A stretch of 44,239 bases of DNA from Acidimicrobiales bacterium. Lineage in GTDB: Bacteria > Actinomycetota > Acidimicrobiia > Acidimicrobiales > RAAP-2. Of the stretch, positions 2,880 through 11,706 are shown piece by piece. The DNA lies in contig JADGOJ010000007.1 in the NCBI GenBank assembly GCA_017883045.1, positions 1 through 44,239 on the forward strand, in the 5' to 3' direction. The notes under the pieces are model-generated. The model was not told the DNA's origin. It saw only the letters and a list, made by a program, of their open reading frames with translations, and searched no databases. The translations under genes were made by a program, and so were the position numbers. Position 1 is the stretch's first letter. Every line of letters begins with the position of its first letter.

Positions 2880-4067
2880 ATGACCCGCCCATTCACTGAC
2901 GACCTGTCCGGACTTCTCAAGTCGGTGAACGACCCGATGGTCGAGCTGCGCCATGATCTGCACGCCCATCCCGAACTCGCCTTCCAAGAACGCCGCACCA
3001 CCCGCATCGTTCGCGATCGCCTCGTCGCGCTCGGGTGGGAGCTGGCGACCTGCCCGACCGAGACCGGCGCCGTGGCCGTGTTGCACGGCGCTAAACCCGG
3101 TCGACGCGTGATGGTTCGAGCCGACATCGACGGCCTTCCCGTGACCGAAGAGGTCGACCTGCCCTTCGCTTCGGTGAACGAAGGGGTGATGCACGCCTGC
3201 GGGCACGACGTGCACACCGCGGCTCTGCTCGGGGTCGCGGATCTGCTCGCGCGGCGTCGCGACGAACTCGCTGGCGAATTCACCCTGCTCTTCCAACCCG
3301 CTGAGGAGAGCCTCGGTGGAGCTCGGGCGATGATTGCCGGTGGAGTGCTCGAGAACAATCCGGTCGATTTCGTGATCGGGGCGCACGTGACCTCACTCGC
3401 CCCGGTCGGCTTGGTCGCGACGAGGCCGGGCATATTGATGAGTGAAGCGGTCGGGCTCACCGTGCACATCGAGGGCAAGGGCGGCCACGGAGCGATGGCG
3501 AGCGTCGAAGGCAACGTGGTGCTGGCGGTAAGCCACTTGGCACCGCGGCTGGGCGAAGTCGTCGATGGACTCAGCTACGACGGGACCAACTGCGCCTGCT
3601 CGGCTGGCGTCGTCGGCGCCGGCACGGCGAACAACGTCGTCCCGCGCCACGCAGTGCTGCGCGGGACCCTTCGCACCTTCACCCCCGACCAGCAGCGCCA
3701 GGCGCTCGCCCGCCTCGACGGGATCCTCGCCGAGGTCGAGGCGATGTTCGTGGTCAAGTGCACACTGCAGGTGAACGAGGGAACGCCGGCCGTTCACAAT
3801 AATGCCGAGGTCGTCCAACGGGTGATGGCGAGCGCCACGCACGTTGTCGACGCCCGCGGCGTCCTCACCGTGCCGCCGGTCTCGCCCAGCGATGACGTGT
3901 CGGAGTTCTTGAACCGCGTGCCGGGCTGCTACCTGCTGGTGGGCGGTGCGATGCCCGACGGGTCGAGCGGGATGCACCACGGCCCCGACTTCGCCGTCGA
4001 TGATGACGCGTGCCGGGTGATGGCGGGCGTGCTGGCGGCGAGCGCGGTGGATCTGGCTCAGTCGTAG
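2880..4067 (+). CDS. M20D-family amidohydrolase (HipO/IAA-amino-acid hydrolase type)
   Basis: This 395-residue cytosolic metallohydrolase cleaves an acyl-amide bond, typically an N-acyl amino acid; the substrate is not predictable. Visible motifs in order: RHDLHAHPELAF (24-35), RADIDGLPV (80-88), the metal site MHACGHDVH (104-112) with Cys107 and His109, QPAEES (139-144) with the catalytic Glu, His169, the dimerisation-lid GKGGHGA (199-205) and the C-terminal ligand in HHGPDFAVDD. Length and motif order match the family. The start ATG 2880 follows a TACCAT box with leaderless spacing. The 3' end overlaps the convergent ROK kinase gene by 10 bp. Confidence 0.93.
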   Translation: MTRPFTDDLSGLLKSVNDPMVELRHDLHAHPELAFQERRTTRIVRDRLVALGWELATCPTETGAVAVLHGAKPGRRVMVRADIDGLPVTEEVDLPFASVNEGVMHACGHDVHTAALLGVADLLARRRDELAGEFTLLFQPAEESLGGARAMIAGGVLENNPVDFVIGAHVTSLAPVGLVATRPGILMSEAVGLTVHIEGKGGHGAMASVEGNVVLAVSHLAPRLGEVVDGLSYDGTNCACSAGVVGAGTANNVVPRHAVLRGTLRTFTPDQQRQALARLDGILAEVEAMFVVKCTLQVNEGTPAVHNNAEVVQRVMASATHVVDARGVLTVPPVSPSDDVSEFLNRVPGCYLLVGGAMPDGSSGMHHGPDFAVDDDACRVMAGVLAASAVDLAQS

Positions 4068-4819
4068 AAGAGCTTGGCCGCGCCGCGCAGTGACGCTTGA
4101 TTCCCGTTGACGACCACGTGAAACGGTAGGCCCGAGAACAGCGTCGGCGCGACCCTCCGCGCATTGCCACCCGCGAGGTGCACCGTTGCGGCTCCGAACT
4201 CCTTGGCGAAGTTCTTGACCGCGAGGAGCAGAAGCTCATCCCAGCGCTCCTCGTCCTGCGCACGCGCACGCTCGCCGACCGACTGGTCGTAGGTCTTGCC
4301 GTCGACGAACACCTCGGCTCCCACGTCGCGCACGCTCTTCATGGTTCCATCGACACAGAGGGCCAGTCCGAGCCCCGTGCCGAGCGTGAGGACGAGTTCA
4401 ACGCCCCGGCCATCGCACGAGCCGAGTGCGGCGAGTGTCGCGTCGTTGACGACGCGCACGTCGCGATGAGTGGCGTCGCGCAGGGCGGCCTGGAGGCCGA
4501 ACCCCCGCCACTGCTCATCGAGAACCGGGTCCTTCTCCGTGGCGACGCCCCCGGGGCGCGAGAGGTTGCCGGGGCGGATGACGCGGCCGTCCCTGAATTC
4601 GCCGGGGAACCCGACGCCGACTCGAGGGCGGTCGCTGGCCATGATCCGCTCGACCAACATCTCGATGAGTCGAGCCGGCGTGCAGGGATACGGGGTGGGT
4701 CGACGCCTGGGCGTCTCGAGGAACTCCCCGAAGCGGTCCACGTGGCAGAACTTCGTGTTGGTCGCACCGATGTCGATGGCGAGCACACTCTCATCCATCG
4801 AATGATTCGGTTCAGCCAT
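4058..4819 (-). CDS. ROK-family kinase, polyphosphate-glucokinase-like
   Basis: This 253-residue sugar-kinase fold protein would phosphorylate a hexose such as glucose. The N-terminal phosphate-binding loop reads AIDIGATNTKF (about 14-24). Then come GVGFPGEF, VVNDATLAALG (substrate-site Asn-Asp), the second phosphate loop LTLGTGLGLAL, and the adenosine region HLAGGNA. The segment GAEVFVDGKTYDQSVGERA resembles the ELGH...ER region of polyphosphate glucokinases, with the ELGH core altered to VGAE. The typical ROK zinc Cys cluster is absent. ATP, GTP or polyphosphate could be the donor. The start ATG 4819 is supported by a TACCAT box six bases upstream. The gene is convergent with the amidohydrolase. 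Confidence 0.8.
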   Translation of the reverse strand: MAEPNHSMDESVLAIDIGATNTKFCHVDRFGEFLETPRRRPTPYPCTPARLIEMLVERIMASDRPRVGVGFPGEFRDGRVIRPGNLSRPGGVATEKDPVLDEQWRGFGLQAALRDATHRDVRVVNDATLAALGSCDGRGVELVLTLGTGLGLALCVDGTMKSVRDVGAEVFVDGKTYDQSVGERARAQDEERWDELLLLAVKNFAKEFGAATVHLAGGNARRVAPTLFSGLPFHVVVNGNQASLRGAAKLFYD

Positions 4820-4838: not shown

Positions 4839-5987
4839 CTAGCGCATCCCCCGCGGTCGCAACCGTCGATCGTGCCACCACGGTCGCAGACGCACCGAAT
4901 ACGCTCGGCTTCGACCGGCGACGACGGTGCCGGTCCCCGCTGGCCTCTGACGGATCGGGACCACGGTGGCGCCCTCCTTCGCCTCGAGCAATTCAGGCAG
5001 GTAGTTCACCACGGTCGGGTCCGCGAGACCGCCCATCACCAATCGGGTCATGTGGTTGTTGACGATGGTGGGAGCACGCGGTCCCCAGCGGGCCGTCAGC
5101 TGAGCGAAGTCCTGCAGCACCGTCACCAGGGTGACGTCGATTCCGCTCACCGTGGCCGCCAACTGGTCGAGCTCATCGAGCGACGCCACCGCGGCGGCCT
5201 CGTCCAACACGAGGAGCAGCCGGCGCTGGACTCCGGTGTCGGCGAGTCGCTGCTGCTCTTCGAGCACCATGCGCAGAGCGCCACGAAAGAGTGGCTCGTA
5301 GTGCCGCTGTTCGCCTCGGGGACTGCAGAGGTAGAGAGTGTTCGGCCCAGCGGTCACCGTGCGGACCTTGGCGAGTGGCTGGCGAAAACGCCACGGCAGG
5401 AGCATCGTCTCGGCGGTCGTCAGCACTCCATCGAGCGTCTTGGCGTCGTAGGCGAGGAAACTCTCGAGGACCGCGCCCGCTTGGCTGCGCGACGCGTCGT
5501 CGGCCCAAGGTTGCAGGTTGCGCGTCTCGACGAGGCTCGCGACATCGAAGATGTCGCGCGATCGCCCCTTGGCCAACACGAGCAGCGCGGCGACCAGCTT
5601 CGTGGCCAGCGAATTCCAGAACTCGGTCTCGCCCCGATCGGCCGATCCGATGGTCAGGTCTCGCGCGACGCGAAGTGCGTGGCGCAACGTGTCGACACCC
5701 TCGAGGGGATTCCACGTGAGTCCGTCCTCGAGACCTGGCGCGAGTACCTGCACGTCGCCGATTGAACTGCGCCACGTCCTCGTCGCCGCCACCACGTCGC
5801 TCTTCACACTCGTCACCACGAGGGCGTCGGTCCAGCGCAGGATCGATGGAATCACCAGCGATGACGTCTTGCCGACCTGGGTCGGTCCGACGATGAGCAG
5901 GGAGCTGCGTGGCCCCAGAAGCACTTCCGGACCGTAGGCGAGACCGTGCCAGAGTCGACGGCCGAGCGAGGGCCGGTCACTGGTCAC
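4839..5987 (-). CDS. VirD4/TraG-like ATPase (T4SS coupling protein), no membrane anchor
   Basis: In type IV systems this ATPase recruits the substrate and feeds it to the channel. The 382-residue protein has Walker A GPTQVGKT (34-41), the family segment VTSVKSDVV (58-66), WNPL (92-95), Walker B LLLVLDEA (257-264) and a downstream QDFAQL typical of VirD4/TraG (TcpA-like) proteins. Family members usually have two N-terminal membrane spans and 500-600 residues. Here the Walker A begins 34 residues in and no hydrophobic anchor is visible. GTG 5987 overlaps the VirB4-like gene by 11 nt, making it the last gene of the operon. A role in DNA or protein transfer cannot be told apart. Confidence 0.85.
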   Translation of the reverse strand: MTSDRPSLGRRLWHGLAYGPEVLLGPRSSLLIVGPTQVGKTSSLVIPSILRWTDALVVTSVKSDVVAATRTWRSSIGDVQVLAPGLEDGLTWNPLEGVDTLRHALRVARDLTIGSADRGETEFWNSLATKLVAALLVLAKGRSRDIFDVASLVETRNLQPWADDASRSQAGAVLESFLAYDAKTLDGVLTTAETMLLPWRFRQPLAKVRTVTAGPNTLYLCSPRGEQRHYEPLFRGALRMVLEEQQRLADTGVQRRLLLVLDEAAAVASLDELDQLAATVSGIDVTLVTVLQDFAQLTARWGPRAPTIVNNHMTRLVMGGLADPTVVNYLPELLEAKEGATVVPIRQRPAGTGTVVAGRSRAYSVRLRPWWHDRRLRPRGMR

Positions 5988-7158
5988 GGTCGGCGATCCT
6001 CATCGCGCCATCGGTGTCGACGAAACTCAGGTCGTGCGGGTCCGGCTCGACGCGCACGATCGAACGGTGCGCCCCGTAGCGAACGAGCGCGACTCCCTTG
6101 GGCAGAGCGCAGAGGTACCGCTCCTCTCGCTGGTGCAGACCGAGCGCGACCGCCATCTCGCGAGCCTCGTCGGGGGGCTGGCGGAACAGCCAGGACGTCT
6201 CGCACTCTCGCAGAAGGCCCTGCGCCCTTTCGCGCTCGGCGCTGCCCGCGTTGCCCACGGCCGCCACGTCGGTCCAACGGTGGAGCACCAGCACGTGGCT
6301 CAGACCGCGAGCTCGAGCGAGTTTCCACGAACCCTGCAGCCAGCGCAGTGCGTGAGAGTCGGACAACAGCGCCCACGCCTCGTCGAGTACGAGATAGCCC
6401 AAGGCCTCGTCCCCGGCGACGACCTGCTGGGCCGCGGCCACTGCGCTGAGGGCCGCGACCGAGAAGGAGTTGGACGACCACTGAGCGGAGAGGTCCAGCA
6501 CGACGAGACTGCCCGAGAAGCGCATCGGCTGGCCCGGACCGTCGAAGAGGCCGGCCAGATCGCCGTGGACGAAGCGGTAGAGCACGAGGGCGAGCGATCG
6601 CCGCGGACTCGCGGTCGCCGAGGAGAGGTGCGGCGCGACCAGCTCGTAGAGGGCGCCGAGGACTCGAAGCGGGCGGGGCACGGGCAGCTCGCGCCACACC
6701 TCATCGATCGTGTACTGCTGGTCACTCGTGAGCGAGGAGCCTTGCGCGCTGGCGACGAGCGCGCGCAGCAGGTCGCGACTCTCCCTATCGCTCACGGGGA
6801 ACGGACTGCACCAACCATCACGGCCGAGCGCCTTGACCGCGACGCCGTGCGATCCAGCCAACTCGCCGTACTCGCCTTTAGGGTCGATCACGACGACCCG
6901 CCGTCCGCGATCGAGCGCCCGGTCCAACATCATCTTGACCACGGTGCTCTTGCCGGCACCGATCGAGCCGGCCACGACGACGTTGGGATTCGACACCAGG
7001 CCGGCGGCGTACGCGTCGAACGGGTCGAAGACGAACTGCGAGCCTCGCTGGGCCCCGCCAAGGCTTCGCCCCGACAGTCCGGTGCCGGCGTCGTGCGCGG
7101 GCCCGCGGAGTGACGCGAGGTCCCTCGACGTCGCCCAATGGGTCCACGGCCGGCTCAC
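5977..7158 (-). CDS. VirB4-like ATPase, C-terminal motor domain
   Basis: The 393-residue motor ATPase of a T4SS-like machine. FVFDPFDAYAAGLVSNPNVV leads into Walker A GSIGAGKS (64-71), followed by VVIDPKGEYGEL, and Walker B GYLVLDEAWALL (about 254-265), then LHRWTD and a C-terminal part ending in RVEPDPHDLSF. These are hallmarks of the VirB4/TraC (FtsK-HerA) ATPases. The expected N-terminal half is absent here and is supplied by the preceding gene, so VirB4 is split into two polypeptides. GTG 7158 is chosen because its GTGA overlaps the upstream TGA. A longer frame from GTG 7194 would give a 40-nt overlap. Confidence 0.87.
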   Translation of the reverse strand: MSRPWTHWATSRDLASLRGPAHDAGTGLSGRSLGGAQRGSQFVFDPFDAYAAGLVSNPNVVVAGSIGAGKSTVVKMMLDRALDRGRRVVVIDPKGEYGELAGSHGVAVKALGRDGWCSPFPVSDRESRDLLRALVASAQGSSLTSDQQYTIDEVWRELPVPRPLRVLGALYELVAPHLSSATASPRRSLALVLYRFVHGDLAGLFDGPGQPMRFSGSLVVLDLSAQWSSNSFSVAALSAVAAAQQVVAGDEALGYLVLDEAWALLSDSHALRWLQGSWKLARARGLSHVLVLHRWTDVAAVGNAGSAERERAQGLLRECETSWLFRQPPDEAREMAVALGLHQREERYLCALPKGVALVRYGAHRSIVRVEPDPHDLSFVDTDGAMRIADRDQ

Positions 7159-8222
7159 CAACCTGCCCCTCCGGGAAGCTGATGCCGATGCCACAGCGCC
7201 TGGCGACCGAGACCACGCTCGCAGCGCAACCCCGCCTCGCTGGCGCAGCGCGTGACGTCGGCCGTCGCACGTCGCAGCTCATCGAGGTCGTTGGCCCGTA
7301 CCACGAAGTAGACGGCTATTCGCAGGAGCGATCGACCATGCACGACGAGCGTCTCACGCTGACGCAACCGCTCGAGGGACTGGACGCTTCGGGCCGACCG
7401 GCGGAATCCGGCGGCCTGCGACGTCGCGTCGTCACTCCCGACCCGATGGACCGCCCGGGCCGCGAGGCGACTGGCTCGAGACCCCCCGACGACGTCGATG
7501 TGCAGGGCCACGTCCAGCGACGGCGACGCGAACTGGACCCGTTCGAGCAGGGCGCGGCCCGCGACGGCCGCACTGAAATCGCCAACGCGCAGTATCCGCA
7601 TCACCCCGGAAGGGCTGCGCACGTAGCGCCACCTTTCGAAGAGCAACGTCGGATCGTCGAAGCGGAGCAAGCCAGCCACGTCGGCGGCGAGCGAATCGCG
7701 CCGCGTCCATTCATCGGGAGGATTGACCTCCACGGGGAGAGCCAGGACCGTCATCACGCCGCCGCGTCGCGAGCACGTGTGCACCGAGAGATGTCGAGTG
7801 CGCCCACCGGTAGCGAGACCATCGACCAGCGAGGCCAGCAGTTCAGAATCAACCAGGTCCCGCCCCGAGAGATCGAGGCGACCACGGTGCCTCAGTTCAA
7901 AGGCGCGAAAACTCACTTCGCCCCCAGCACTCAACAACACTCCTTCATGCGTGGCGCCGACCGAGATCGATGTCCAGCGGGAGCGCCCGAGGAATCGTGC
8001 GGCGATGCTCAGCTGCTCGCCGCACGTGAGCCCGTCGTGCACCGGGATCGCGCTGACGAGCAGCACCACACCGATCAGCACCTCGGGCCACTGCCCCTCG
8101 GGTCGAGTAACCCAATCGCCCACCAGGCCAAGGCCCACAATGACCAACACCGCCTGGTGACGCCTCACCCCTATCCAGCGGCTCTCGGCGTCAGCGGCGC
8201 CCAGTTCCAAGAGATCACTCAT
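7155..8222 (-). CDS. SCO6880/PrgI-like protein: two TM spans plus VirB4 N-terminal-like domain
   Basis: This 355-residue protein begins with a short cytosolic stretch, two hydrophobic spans (about residues 23-40 and 46-62) in the manner of PrgI, then about 290 soluble residues with conserved-looking LSVHTCSRRGGVMTV and VMRILRVGDF that correspond in position to the N-terminal domain of VirB4. No P-loop is present; the motor is the next gene. Actinobacterial elements often carry this arrangement, the SCO6880 family, which I recall by architecture only. ATG 8222 overlaps the upstream stop in ATGAGTGA. A 53-residue upstream extension would be antisense-like, Arg-rich and unlikely. Confidence 0.7.
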   Translation of the reverse strand: MSDLLELGAADAESRWIGVRRHQAVLVIVGLGLVGDWVTRPEGQWPEVLIGVVLLVSAIPVHDGLTCGEQLSIAARFLGRSRWTSISVGATHEGVLLSAGGEVSFRAFELRHRGRLDLSGRDLVDSELLASLVDGLATGGRTRHLSVHTCSRRGGVMTVLALPVEVNPPDEWTRRDSLAADVAGLLRFDDPTLLFERWRYVRSPSGVMRILRVGDFSAAVAGRALLERVQFASPSLDVALHIDVVGGSRASRLAARAVHRVGSDDATSQAAGFRRSARSVQSLERLRQRETLVVHGRSLLRIAVYFVVRANDLDELRRATADVTRCASEAGLRCERGLGRQALWHRHQLPGGAGW

Positions 8223-9327
8223 CGAAGTGCCAGCCCACGACGGGGCCCATGTCGTCTTGGTGATAGGCGACATGGCCCCCTCGGGGCCGGGGAATGCCGA
8301 CGGGCGCCGGCAGTGGCTCGCCGCCAATCGGGGGCATCGGCATCTCAGAGTCGGCCTCCCACATCCCGAGTCCCAAGTCATCGGGACGGGTCGCGGGACC
8401 GGTCATTGGCATGGCCGGGGTGAGTGATCGCACCGCGGTGCCCAAGGGCGAGGACGGCGCGCTGGCCACGACCCGCGAGAAACGCGCACGAACCCCCTCG
8501 AGGTGGTGGAGGGCTGACTGCTCGATGAAGGGGATCACCCGAAGCAGGAGAAGGGGCGAGCACGTCGCCAGTATCAGGGTGACGGCGCCCGTGATCACTT
8601 GGGTCGCCGACGAACCGAGCAGCTCATCGAGTCCGAGCGAGAGGGTGATCACGATGAGGAACTTGCTGATCGCCACGGCGACGAACGTCTCGCCGAGGCG
8701 CCAACCGAGGCGCCGGCCCGACGGGAACGTGGACAGCGGGATCACCACCGGCACCAGGACCAGCAGCAACGTCAGCACGACGCTGCGCACGATCAACTCG
8801 CACCACAACAACCACGTGCCGACCACGACGCCAATCGCCAGCAGGAAGAGTCCGAAGCCCGGCGTCGACGGTGCCAGGTTGCTCATCGCCTTGGTCAGGG
8901 TGGCCTCGTGCTGCACGACCGCTCCTGCGGCGCTAGTCGAAAGCTGATTGACGGCTTGGAGGATCAGCGCTGCGGCGGGACGAGCGAAGGCGATACCCGC
9001 CACGCAGGCCGGGGCAACGCCGAAGTAGACGCGCCAGAGGGAGGAACTGTCTCCGTGACGAACCGCCTGCAACGTGGCCGTCAGCAGTCCCAGCATCAGT
9101 AGAGCAGGACTGATCGAAAGCAGGGCGTTGAACTCCTGAGTTGCGGATCGCACGACGGTCGAGGGTTCACTCGCCGAGGTGAGCACTTGGCCCGCCGCGT
9201 TGAGCAACCACTGGACGCTGCCGAGAATCCAGCTCGTCATCGCGTCGAAGAGGTCGCCGAGGGTGGCTTTCGCGATCGAGGTTGCGACACACGCGCCTGG
9301 CGCGACCAGACAGTACAGGTGAGCCAT
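8215..9327 (-). CDS. VirB6/TrbL-like polytopic membrane protein of T4SS-like operon
   Basis: The 370-residue protein is the likely inner-membrane channel component. It has an N-terminal amphipathic region (LFDAMTSWILGSVQWLLNAAG), at least five hydrophobic spans (starting with ALLSISPALLMLGLLTATL and including GLFLLAIGVVVGTWLLWCEL and VVLTLLLVLVPVVIP), then a 90-residue hydrophilic Pro/Met-rich tail (PMPPIGGEPLPAPVGIPRP) presumably in the cytosol. VirB6/TrbL proteins of Gram-positive systems share this layout. ATG 9327 overlaps the upstream stop in TGATG, so translation is coupled. A start at 9522 would translate the antisense of the pilin gene and is rejected. Confidence 0.78.
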   Translation of the reverse strand: MAHLYCLVAPGACVATSIAKATLGDLFDAMTSWILGSVQWLLNAAGQVLTSASEPSTVVRSATQEFNALLSISPALLMLGLLTATLQAVRHGDSSSLWRVYFGVAPACVAGIAFARPAAALILQAVNQLSTSAAGAVVQHEATLTKAMSNLAPSTPGFGLFLLAIGVVVGTWLLWCELIVRSVVLTLLLVLVPVVIPLSTFPSGRRLGWRLGETFVAVAISKFLIVITLSLGLDELLGSSATQVITGAVTLILATCSPLLLLRVIPFIEQSALHHLEGVRARFSRVVASAPSSPLGTAVRSLTPAMPMTGPATRPDDLGLGMWEADSEMPMPPIGGEPLPAPVGIPRPRGGHVAYHQDDMGPVVGWHFDE

Positions 9328-9611
9328 CAGTGAACGCTGAGCCCCGTCTTGAAGAAGAAGTTGATCAGACTGGGTGCGGCGCCGATCAGAATCGCGGCGC
9401 CCAGTGACGTGAGAACCGCGCGGCGACCCTGTGCCGATTGGTGCATGTTCTGCGTGTGGCTCCCCACCGCCCACAGTGCTGCGCCGAGCAGTAGTGCGCC
9501 CAGTGATCCCACGAGGGCCCACGCGGCGATTCCATCAACGATCTGCTGCAATGCGGCGCTGCCGGGAAGTGCGCTCGTTGAGGGATGGAGACTGACATCG
9601 GCAAGCACCAT
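9327..9611 (-). CDS. VirB2/TrbC-like small membrane protein (pilin-like)
   Basis: The 94-residue first gene of the T4SS-like operon has two hydrophobic segments (about 26-49 and 67-88) separated by a short polar loop rich in Gln, His and Arg (HTQNMHQSAQGRR). That is the topology of VirB2/TrbC pilins and of the small membrane proteins heading actinobacterial conjugation operons. No Sec-type cleavable leader is obvious, although the first 25 residues could be removed. GTG 9608 is an alternative start to ATG 9611. It is divergent from the sensor kinase gene across 77 bp. Confidence 0.68.
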   Translation of the reverse strand: MVLADVSLHPSTSALPGSAALQQIVDGIAAWALVGSLGALLLGAALWAVGSHTQNMHQSAQGRRAVLTSLGAAILIGAAPSLINFFFKTGLSVH

Positions 9612-9628: not shown

Positions 9629-9642
9629 TTGGGGCACCCCAA
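9629..9642. promoter_or_regulatory. Dyad TTGGGG-CA-CCCCAA in divergent promoter
   Basis: A 6-bp perfect inverted repeat with a 2-bp centre, 18 bp upstream of the T4SS-like operon start and 47 bp upstream of the sensor-kinase start. Its position suits an operator controlling one or both units. No regulator family is recognised from the sequence. Confidence 0.35.
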
Positions 9643-9676
9643 CGGTCGCAAACCCGTCCTCAGTGGCTTCGTCTGC

Positions 9677-9682
9677 GAGAAT
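9677..9682 (+). promoter_or_regulatory. -10-like GAGAAT before sensor kinase GTG
   Basis: GAGAAT is followed after six bases by GTG 9689, the leaderless spacing seen elsewhere in the window. It supports GTG 9689 over the upstream ATG-like start at 9629, which falls inside the dyad. Confidence 0.35.
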
Positions 9683-9688
9683 GGGTCG

Positions 9689-10984
9689 GTGCTCTTCGCG
9701 ACGACCAAGAACGTCATCTCCCTCTGGCCCTCCTTCGCCGTCTATCTGGCGGCCGCGGGCCTCCTGTTCTTCGGCGTTCTTGTCGGCGTGCTCATCAACC
9801 GCCGCCGGGGCCACCGCGCGATCGCCCAGCGCCTGACGGCGCTCGCCTCGCGCCTCGGCGTCGAGCCACGCGATGACGTCGGCAAGGTCGAGACGGCACT
9901 GAGCTACCTCGAAGAGGCCACCGGCGCGGCGACTACCGCCGTCAGCGAATCCAGCGCCGAGGCCGTCCGGCTGCGCCAATCCCTCGACGCGCTGCCCCTG
10001 GGCCTCGTGCTGTGTGACGAGGCCGGAGGGGTCATCTTTCGAAACAGGCAGGCCGAGGCTCTCATGACCAGCCGCTACGGCGACGCGATCGCCGCCCAAG
10101 CGGTCACCGACGTGCTGGCCGACGGCTGGTCCAACGGCGTTGCCGAACGGACCATCGACATCTACGGACCGCCGCGGCGCACTTTGACCATCCGGGCCTC
10201 GGTGATCGACGACGGACGTCGGCCCCTCGGCGTGCTCGCGATCATCGAGGACGTCTCCGAGCGACGCCGACTCGAGGACATCCGCCGTGACTTCATCGCC
10301 AACGTCTCGCACGAGTTGAAGACTCCGATGGGGGCCCTGGGCCTGCTGGCCGAGACCCTCCAGTTCGAGCGCGACCCCACCGTCGCGCACCGCCTCGCCG
10401 AGCGCATCAACTCCGAGGCCTTCCGCGTGAACCGGATCATCGAAGACCTGCTGGACCTCTCGCGGATCGAGGGCGAGGGCTTGCCCACCCGAGAGCCGAT
10501 CCCGATCTCGCTGATCGTCGCCGACGCGATCGAGCGGATCCGCACCGCGGCCGAGCAGCACGACGTGAAGATCGACTTCCTGGAACCTGAGGTGAGCCTG
10601 GTCGTCTTCGGCGACCGGCGCCAGCTCATCTCCGCCATCCACGCCCTGCTGGAGAACGCCGTCGTGTACTCGCCCAGGGGCGCCGCGGTCACCATCTCCA
10701 TCAACCGCGTCGACGCCACCGTGAACGAGGACGGCGAGAGTGTCAGTCCCCACGTGCGAATCGCCATCAAGGACCAGGGTGTCGGCATACCGGCCAAGGA
10801 CCTCGAGCGGATCTTCGAACGCTTCTACCGCGTCGACCCGGGTCGGGCCCGCGAAACCGGCGGGACCGGACTGGGGCTGAGTATCGTTCGTCACGTGGCC
10901 CAGAATCACGGCGGGAACGTCCTCGTGGAGTCTCGCGAAGGCGAGGGATCCACCTTCACCCTCGAACTGCCGATGAACAAGTGA
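9689..10984 (+). CDS. senX3: SenX3/PhoR-like sensor histidine kinase
   Basis: A 431-residue membrane sensor kinase that should phosphorylate the adjacent RegX3-like regulator. In mycobacteria this pair responds to phosphate limitation; here that is inference. It has an N-terminal hydrophobic region (residues about 10-36) ending in RRR, a coiled-coil, a PAS-like domain (about 98-190), the dimerisation H-box FIANVSHELKTP with His208, the N-box LLENAVVYSP, and G-boxes DQGVGIP and GGTGLGLSIV with the F-box IFERFYRVD between them. No large extracytoplasmic sensor is present, as in SenX3. The gene ends TGATG, overlapping the regulator start by one base. Confidence 0.88.
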   Translation: MLFATTKNVISLWPSFAVYLAAAGLLFFGVLVGVLINRRRGHRAIAQRLTALASRLGVEPRDDVGKVETALSYLEEATGAATTAVSESSAEAVRLRQSLDALPLGLVLCDEAGGVIFRNRQAEALMTSRYGDAIAAQAVTDVLADGWSNGVAERTIDIYGPPRRTLTIRASVIDDGRRPLGVLAIIEDVSERRRLEDIRRDFIANVSHELKTPMGALGLLAETLQFERDPTVAHRLAERINSEAFRVNRIIEDLLDLSRIEGEGLPTREPIPISLIVADAIERIRTAAEQHDVKIDFLEPEVSLVVFGDRRQLISAIHALLENAVVYSPRGAAVTISINRVDATVNEDGESVSPHVRIAIKDQGVGIPAKDLERIFERFYRVDPGRARETGGTGLGLSIVRHVAQNHGGNVLVESREGEGSTFTLELPMNK

Positions 10985-11706
10985 TGGCGAAGAAGACACC
11001 GACCGAGAAGAGGACCAGCGTCTTGGTCGTCGAGGACGAAGAGTCGTTCATCGACGCGCTGAGCATCGGGCTGGATCGCGAGGGGTTCGACGTCACGATC
11101 GCCCGTGACGGCATGCAGGCCCTGACCCTCTTCGACAAGGCCACCTTCGACGTCGTGCTGCTCGACCTGATGCTGCCCAAGCTCTCGGGCCTCGACGTCT
11201 GTCGCGCGATCCGGGCGCACAGCAGCGTTCCGATCATCATCGTCAGCGCCAAGGGCGAAGAGGTCGACATGGTCCTGTTGCTCGAGATCGGGGCCGACGA
11301 CTACGTGACCAAGCCCTACCGACTCCGCGAGTTGGTCGCTCGCATCCGTGCGGTGCTTCGCCGCCGCGAGGTCCACGAACCGGTGCCCGACGCCGACGAG
11401 GAGATCACGCTCGGCCCCATCCGGATGGACATCGACGCCCGGCGCTGCTTCGTCGACGGCGAGGAGATCAAGCTTCGCAAGAAGGAGTTCGCGCTGCTGC
11501 GCCTGCTGCTCGAGAATCCCGGCCGAGTCCTGACCCGCGAGGTGCTCATCGACCGGGTGTGGGGCAGCGACTACGTAGGTGATACCAAGACTCTCGATGT
11601 GCACATCAAACGACTTCGGACCCTGATCGAGAAAGACGCGAAGAAGCCCGCGCACATCACGACCGTTCGCGGCGTGGGCTACCGATTCGAGACTGCGAAG
11701 TCCTGA
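10984..11706 (+). CDS. regX3: RegX3/PhoB-like OmpR-family response regulator
   Basis: The 240-residue DNA-binding response regulator has a receiver domain (about 11-125) with the acidic pair EDE at 18-20, phospho-acceptor Asp61 in VVLLDLMLP, the switch Ser in IIVSAKG and Lys in YVTKPY. The winged-helix domain (about 140-238) has KEFALLRLLLENPGRVLTR and DVHIKRLRTLIE, ending in TTVRGVGYRF. It follows the kinase in TGATG overlap. GTG 10981 is a possible alternative start one codon earlier. The likely regulon is the phosphate response by analogy to RegX3, but no target site is evident in the window. Confidence 0.9.
   Translation: MAKKTPTEKRTSVLVVEDEESFIDALSIGLDREGFDVTIARDGMQALTLFDKATFDVVLLDLMLPKLSGLDVCRAIRAHSSVPIIIVSAKGEEVDMVLLLEIGADDYVTKPYRLRELVARIRAVLRRREVHEPVPDADEEITLGPIRMDIDARRCFVDGEEIKLRKKEFALLRLLLENPGRVLTREVLIDRVWGSDYVGDTKTLDVHIKRLRTLIEKDAKKPAHITTVRGVGYRFETAKS

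Follow-up and report, generated by a model that had tools for sequence, protein, structure and literature searches.

The 44,239-nucleotide contig JADGOJ010000007.1 of an Acidimicrobiales bacterium (assembly GCA_017883045.1), hereafter the window, carries a five-gene operon, A to E, with parts of a type IV secretion system (T4SS). We propose, with the balance of our judgment standing about level, that this operon encodes the channel of a conjugation-type machine for DNA export that the Acidimicrobiales inherit vertically and that is split over two core loci, the second encoding a MobF/TrwC relaxase and a further VirD4-like coupling protein next to a PafBC-type regulator. In such a machine DNA would be the substrate and would leave the cell, the products of the two loci would cooperate physically, and PafBC would control the relaxase; a link of the apparatus to DNA damage is possible. 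That the operon itself is a permanent chromosomal locus, fixed in arrangement, intact and co-inherited, is well supported.

The proposed channel operon and its chromosomal position

The window is the entire contig C42 of its genome (G000, 2.28 Mb in 156 contigs). The operon and its neighbours are as follows:

9327-9611, minus strand: gene A, 94 amino acids (aa); DUF6112 (E 6e-11); VirB2-like pilin candidate
8215-9327, minus strand: gene B, 370 aa; TrbL/VirB6-like membrane protein (TrbL, E 0.0048, below cut-off)
7155-8222, minus strand: gene C, 355 aa; N-terminal half of VirB4 (SCO6880-like, E 1e-8, partial)
5977-7158, minus strand: gene D, 393 aa, GTG start; ATPase half of VirB4
4839-5987, minus strand: gene E, 382 aa; VirD4/TraG coupling ATPase (T4SS-DNA_transf, 5e-23; TraG-D_C, 2e-12)
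4058-4819, minus strand: ROK-family gene (ROK, E 6e-10), 19 bp downstream of E
9629-10984, plus strand: PhoR/PnpS-like histidine kinase (HisKA and HATPase_c), divergent from A; start codon uncertain
10981-11706, plus strand: response regulator, partner of the kinase (Response_reg and Trans_reg_C)

A preliminary description of the window had reported the five minus-strand genes, and both they and their junctions proved real and correctly placed: A and B have a common TGATG, B and C overlap in ATGAGTGA, C and D in GTGA, and D and E by 11 nt. That description ended the operon at E. The ROK gene begins 19 bp later in the same direction and is possibly part of the same transcript as E; in genus loci it comes next after E, or after D where E is lost. 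The flanking gaps measure only 17 bp and 19 bp and leave no room for a relaxase or an integrase, in line with the earlier statement that the operon holds no integrase.

Profile searches bore out the proposed VirB4 (C and D) and VirD4 (E), while the matches behind the proposed identities of A and B were weak. D scored above the cut-offs of DUF87, AAA_10 and TrwB_AAD_bind and below those of the VirB4-type NCBIfam models, and its closest solved structure by sequence is VirB4 4ag5 (E 1e-10). C matched the C-terminal part of the SCO6880 family below threshold (34.5 bits versus a cut-off of 60). C and D are two halves of one VirB4, because 10 of 74 named loci containing C have them fused in a single open frame (8 complete, 732-744 aa, and 2 cut by a contig end or start) and because the solved structures that best match the model of the fused protein (pLDDT 75, pTM 0.51), over nearly the full length, are R388 VirB4/TrwK chains (Foldseek E 6e-20). 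The TM score against these chains is only about 0.4, domain orientation not being captured; the ATPase part of the model matched Thermoanaerobacter VirB4 with a target TM of 0.76. E begins at its nucleotide-binding domain. A has two predicted membrane helices and a conserved GRR loop, its mean column identity over 21 aligned homologues is 77%, and it also matches the T4SS_pilin profile, only below threshold. The structure model of A is helical and of low confidence (pLDDT 68), and Foldseek found no solved structure matching it at E 0.001; A may be a VirB2-like pilin. B reached 17.1 bits against TrbL (cut-off 25.9), a weak match, and its place in the operon is fixed. In genome G035 (L061:13294-14327) B is in two pieces, owing to a frameshift or an assembly error, and the other operon genes are intact.

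The arrangement is the same throughout the named loci. Among the best 80 of 170 loci, 74 had the kinase, A and D, and in all 74 the order, orientation and neighbours were identical; the earlier view of a fixed, chromosomal, lineage-wide operon was thereby confirmed, gene order included. Within the genus, D was found in 92 of 99 genomes and in 56 of the 59 good ones. In five of the seven without D (G001, G003, G082, G092 and G096) a contig ends in or beside the operon, and A with at least part of B is present next to the kinase. Gaps in the detection of E might suggest that the locus is dispensable, a reading we rejected: they are explained by contig ends (G001, G002, G003, G082, G092, G096, G101 and G111), by a region that is unassembled or lost (G025 and G026), or by deletion of E alone. 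Assemblies often break inside the operon, as the contig ends in G001, G003, G082, G092, G096, G101 and G111 show.

Loci fetched from outside the genus are not a random sample. Among 20 picked from strong matches in other genera and families, the kinase was divergent from A in 17 (in L124 at only 33% identity), the others being L118, with operon and ROK gene and no kinase, and L125 and L136, which are ICE-like (ICE, integrative and conjugative element) with a relaxase beside A. Kinase and regulator were present in all four loci of family f32, which includes Acidimicrobium ferrooxidans, and in L351 and L352, and the kinase in L047; it was absent at L044, L045, L046, L048 (contig cut), L049, L248 and L249, and at L350 and L353, both outside the order. 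The families with a kinase-linked locus number 14, or 15 counting L124. ICE-like T4SS copies were also seen at L042, L044 and L079, with A at about 37% identity, and some of these genomes hold MobF relaxases elsewhere (frames to about 1,280 aa).

The named relatives comprise metagenome-assembled genomes of Acidimicrobiaceae, Acidimicrobiales and other actinobacteria, and palsa, bog or fen appears in the isolate names of many. Six records with this actinobacterial operon (L182, L198, L213, L214, L231 and L232) are titled Saccharibacteria or Acidobacteria(ota), probably wrongly. Genome G130, of the same order, was identified here as the type strain of A. ferrooxidans; it is one contig of 2,158,157 bases and carries both loci. 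At its channel locus (L244, G130:C1:200000-219999) the operon is followed, in place of the ROK gene, by putative flagellar and chemotaxis genes, named by eye.

We considered and rejected an ordinary ICE, because synteny is fixed: there is no variable insertion site, the neighbours are the same in all 74 named loci, and an integrase would not fit between the flanking genes.

A relaxase and a second coupling protein on another contig

The second VirD4-like gene of the window's genome, VirD4_2, lies on contig C52 (L032). Beside it, on the opposite strand, a relaxase of 356 aa matches TrwC at E 2e-23. It is the one MobF match of this genome, in which no PF03432 relaxase was found, other MOB families not having been searched. 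The genes rnhB, cofC, VirD4_2, relaxase and a WYL gene had one order in all 10 genus loci first fetched, and the relaxase was found in 95 of 99 genus genomes and in all 59 good ones; the four without it (G061, G064, G068 and G111) are 64-83% complete. The absence of a relaxase noted in the preliminary description is true of the operon and misleading for the genome, and the label non-conjugative is not supported: the genome also has a locus, no less fixed, for a MobF/TrwC relaxase and a further coupling protein. It had also been held that a relaxase in close relatives would make the operon an ordinary mobile element. That test does not apply in this form: a relaxase is indeed present, yet it is a core gene with a constant position and belongs to no element with ends.

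The WYL gene belongs to the PafBC type. Genus genomes have it as a single long gene containing two WYL stretches; in a locus of family f31 (L144) it is split in two, and the second gene matches HTH_PafC (E 6e-26). Of 20 loci from other genera and families, 19 have pafB, pafC and the relaxase gene consecutively on the same strand (exception L151); an interval of 1-4 kb separates pafC from the relaxase gene in three of the 19, and VirD4_2 is close by in 9 of the 20. The A. ferrooxidans relaxase (669 aa) reaches 114.3 bits against the curated MobF cut-off of 100, with pafB on its strand some 7 kb downstream, and that of family f31 reaches 199.3 bits. Relaxases of other families range from about 350 to 1,040 aa, some being cut; the one tested, L082, has a helicase-type AAA domain.

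The active site is retained. The HUH histidines (131, 142 and 144 in the numbering of L032) are intact in all 96 fetched relaxases, 85 of them distinct and two of them ICE-like, with the spacing of TrwC. The motif-I tyrosine is present in 48 of 49 genus-type relaxases and in 29 of 47 others, of which 15 are gapped there, perhaps from wrong starts, and 3 have another residue; the aspartate is present in 48 of 49 and 37 of 47, respectively. The relaxase profile matches solved TrwC/TraI relaxases, among them TrwC (1omh) over the HUH region (E 2e-10). Of the parts of a conjugative T4SS of the monoderm, MPF_FATA-like kind, a VirB4 motor (C and D), coupling proteins (E and VirD4_2) and, at the second locus, a relaxase were found.

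Selection, co-inheritance and the proposed machine

Median ratios of nonsynonymous to synonymous substitution rates (dN/dS; NG86 on close pairs, which are not independent, with 9 pairs for the relaxase) were 0.057 for A, 0.110 for B, 0.171 for C, 0.094 for D, 0.087 for E, 0.056 for VirD4_2 and 0.149 for the relaxase, with 0.060 for the kinase and 0.104 for the regulator as comparison. Judged by these sequence comparisons, both loci are under purifying selection, and the conservation of A to E is far beyond chance because it extends across the genus with low dN/dS. Both loci are also retained in small genomes of 1.4-1.5 Mb, for example G012 and G015 (1.5 Mb, 96-97% complete).

Protein distances of the two loci are correlated (Mantel tests, 999 permutations, p 0.001 throughout): r was 0.91 for D and relaxase and 0.92 for D and VirD4_2 over 18 genomes, and 0.84 for D and kinase and 0.87 for relaxase and kinase over 17 genomes. 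An apparent exchange of coupling proteins is a stronger hint that the two loci belong together than these correlations. E was deleted in seven genomes (G018, G021, G103, G108, G113, G114 and G118), in which the ROK gene follows D after 28-67 bp, and all seven retain VirD4_2 and the relaxase; in the family f32 loci examined E is kept, and VirD4_2 was not found beside the relaxase. Across 297 genomes of the order, with D-like and relaxase matches counted at 1e-15 and mobile elements included, 91 had both, 28 D only, 32 the relaxase only and 146 neither; when 16 of the D-only genomes were searched again at E 0.001, some relaxase match appeared in 14.

According to PMC11804915, PafBC responds to single-stranded DNA. 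In the machine we propose, locus 1 would supply the channel, made of the pilin candidate A, the membrane protein B, VirB4 (C and D) and the coupling protein E, and locus 2 the substrate side, with a MobF/TrwC HUH relaxase directly downstream of pafBC and VirD4_2. PafBC, switched on by single-stranded DNA, would lead to expression of the relaxase, which would nick chromosomal DNA at a putative origin of transfer (oriT) and stay on the 5' end. VirD4_2, or E, would pass the strand to the VirB4-powered channel, and the cell's own DNA would enter a neighbour cell, where it could recombine. The wider claim, that the whole order keeps this two-part machine for giving chromosomal DNA to neighbours as a core function, with the relaxase under or beside PafBC and inheritance since the early Acidimicrobiales, is one we hold tentatively, as falling a little short of probable. 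If true, it would be a household conjugation system and the bacterial counterpart of archaeal Ced.

Several observations weigh against an exporter of this kind. No oriT was found, and the best candidate is better explained otherwise, as described below. The promoter motif of PafBC control, RecA-NDp, is not conserved, with one loose match in 9 sources (upstream of the pafBC-type gene in L038), so that it is adjacency that suggests PafBC control of the relaxase. In the genus, the relaxase consists of nothing but the nuclease part and, at 75.7 bits, is below the MobF cut-off of 100. The operon contains no VirB8-like gene, nor were VirB7-10 type parts seen in it; none of its five genes matches a hydrolase family (VirB1-like cell-wall hydrolase), the rest of the genome not having been searched for one. 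The identities of A and B are weak, and in G025 and G026 neither kinase nor D was found. The distance correlations show shared descent, not cooperation, and the order-wide co-occurrence is inflated by mobile elements; G134 and G050, moreover, have a D match and no relaxase match even at E 0.001.

The two loci might instead do no joint work, locus 1 having been domesticated to secrete proteins, to mediate attachment or to form a pilus, and the relaxase serving separately as a domesticated replication or repair enzyme. They are indeed two different loci, the PafBC neighbourhood suggests a repair context, and chromosomal T4SSs without a relaxase are often taken as protein secretion systems, at least in passages of PMC3158045. 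VirD4-type coupling proteins at both loci, the loss of E only where VirD4_2 stays and the retained active-site residues of the relaxase argue against this, and no candidate protein substrate was seen, though none was searched for; we consider separate machines rather unlikely. Uptake of DNA from neighbours, as proposed for archaeal Ced, would agree with the minimal chromosomal set of VirB2-, VirB6- and VirB4-like parts seen in Ced and Ted, but relaxases and VirD4 proteins are parts of export systems, and passages of PMC9905601 describe Ced and Ted as having no recognizable relaxases. Import is improbable in our estimate.

Ancient ICE remnants decaying in place are suggested by ICE-like relatives with relaxases of their own in the order and the genus, but low dN/dS, intact frames, synteny fixed across families and retention of the loci in 1.4-1.5 Mb genomes make decay very improbable. 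Much the same low standing goes to a platform mainly serving resident plasmids or mobile elements that use the host relaxase or channel. Several genus genomes do hold ICE-like T4SSs and large MobF relaxases (frames to about 1,280 aa) as well, but such elements bring their own T4SS and relaxase, and the window's genome, with a single MobF match and no match to PF03432, the only other relaxase family searched, retains the core loci.

Bacterial conjugation is normally a property of plasmids and ICEs. The Acidimicrobiales loci share the HUH relaxase, VirD4 coupling protein and VirB4 motor with MobF/TrwC conjugation systems (R388, F and actinobacterial ICEs); unlike those, they are split in two, are not on a mobile element and, in the genus, have a relaxase without the helicase part. 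The proposed function, movement of the cell's own chromosomal DNA, is that of mycobacterial distributive transfer and mycoplasma chromosomal transfer. Mycobacterial distributive transfer, in contrast to the system proposed here, uses type VII secretion. Mycoplasma transfer differs in depending on ICE-encoded parts, as stated in PMC12857230.

Closer in setting are the Ced and Ted systems of hyperthermophilic archaea, which have VirB2-, VirB6- and VirB4-like parts on the chromosome, outside a mobile element, and are described in passages of PMC9905601 as domesticated, with exchange of cellular DNA proposed. Whereas these are archaeal, without recognizable relaxase and thought to import, the system described here is bacterial, with VirD4 proteins and with a second core locus that encodes a MobF relaxase. 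Against the Ced models, D of the window matched only CedD, weakly, and D of A. ferrooxidans weakly matched CedB (1e-6, far below cut-off). Patescibacteria likewise have widespread chromosomal T4SSs of the monoderm (MPF_FATA-like) type around VirB4; passages of PMC12102498 report relaxases in only 103 genomes, mostly none nearby, a coupling protein usually far from virB4 and a non-conjugative reading, whereas in the Acidimicrobiales genus the relaxase is near-universal and syntenic. In the part of a 2011 survey of actinobacterial ICEs seen here (PMC3218068), Acidimicrobidae are named only as lacking AICEs (actinomycete ICEs). Open-access literature, with subscription journals mostly outside its scope, gave nothing on point for a T4SS in Acidimicrobiia or A. 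ferrooxidans, for a conjugation relaxase in Acidimicrobiales, or for PafC with a relaxase.

If the exporter is real, a non-mobile, vertically inherited machine with a relaxase would amount to conjugation run by the cell for itself, and the question whether bacteria keep sex genes of their own would become directly testable. A. ferrooxidans, with its closed 2.16 Mb genome, is a cultured species with both loci in a mostly uncultured group. The case is also a warning that chromosomal T4SSs called relaxase-less from their neighbourhood may have a relaxase elsewhere in the genome.

A probable leader of a histone-H1-like gene and other elements

The best oriT candidate was a block of 270-282 bp located between VirD4_2 and an H1-like gene. 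An initial comparison of 12 loci showed it to be conserved, and it was recovered in all 40 further regions. Its pairwise identity was 0.65 versus 0.38 at fourfold sites of VirD4_2 (66 of 66 pairs) and 0.36 for aligned shuffled sequences. It contains a covarying 70-nt hairpin with double changes at 14 of 22 pairs and 94% of cells paired; none of 500 shuffles was as good, and slid versions reached 27-35%. The block occurs in 93 of 99 genus genomes, in single copy except in G000, G033 and G078, and the extra copies precede other H1-like genes, away from the relaxase and VirD4_2. The hairpin reads as RNA on the strand of the H1-like gene, with a GNGA loop and many G-U pairs. We rejected the block as oriT on these two grounds; the likeliest interpretation is that it comprises the promoter and a structured RNA leader of the H1-like gene, because the extra copies precede other such genes away from the relaxase. 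Rfam gave no gathering-level match for the element, and the leader is a candidate for a new RNA family. These elements, and a promoter-like element upstream of A, are located as follows:

L032:11601-11875 (G000:C52): conserved element, putative promoter and RNA leader, preceding a histone-H1-like gene rich in lysine and alanine
L347:158-393, L348:8675-8949, L349:5175-5449: second copies of the H1-like leader element
9637-9683 of the window, minus strand: promoter-like element upstream of A, CATTCTCGCAGA ... GCGACCGTTG, conserved in aligned genus loci

The promoter-like element sits between the kinase gene and A and was found, with small changes, in 20 of 20 aligned genus loci. Its position suggests that the kinase starts later than its longest frame. 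The kinase itself matches PnpS at E 1e-80, yet below the curated cut-off.

The anti-phage defence system MADS was considered and rejected: of the five operon proteins, D is similar to mad8 (3e-19) and E weakly so (2e-5), while A, B and C match nothing in PADLOC, so that the similarity is of the ATPase type only. Elsewhere in the window, an S-adenosylmethionine (SAM) riboswitch lies at 2205-2289 on the plus strand.

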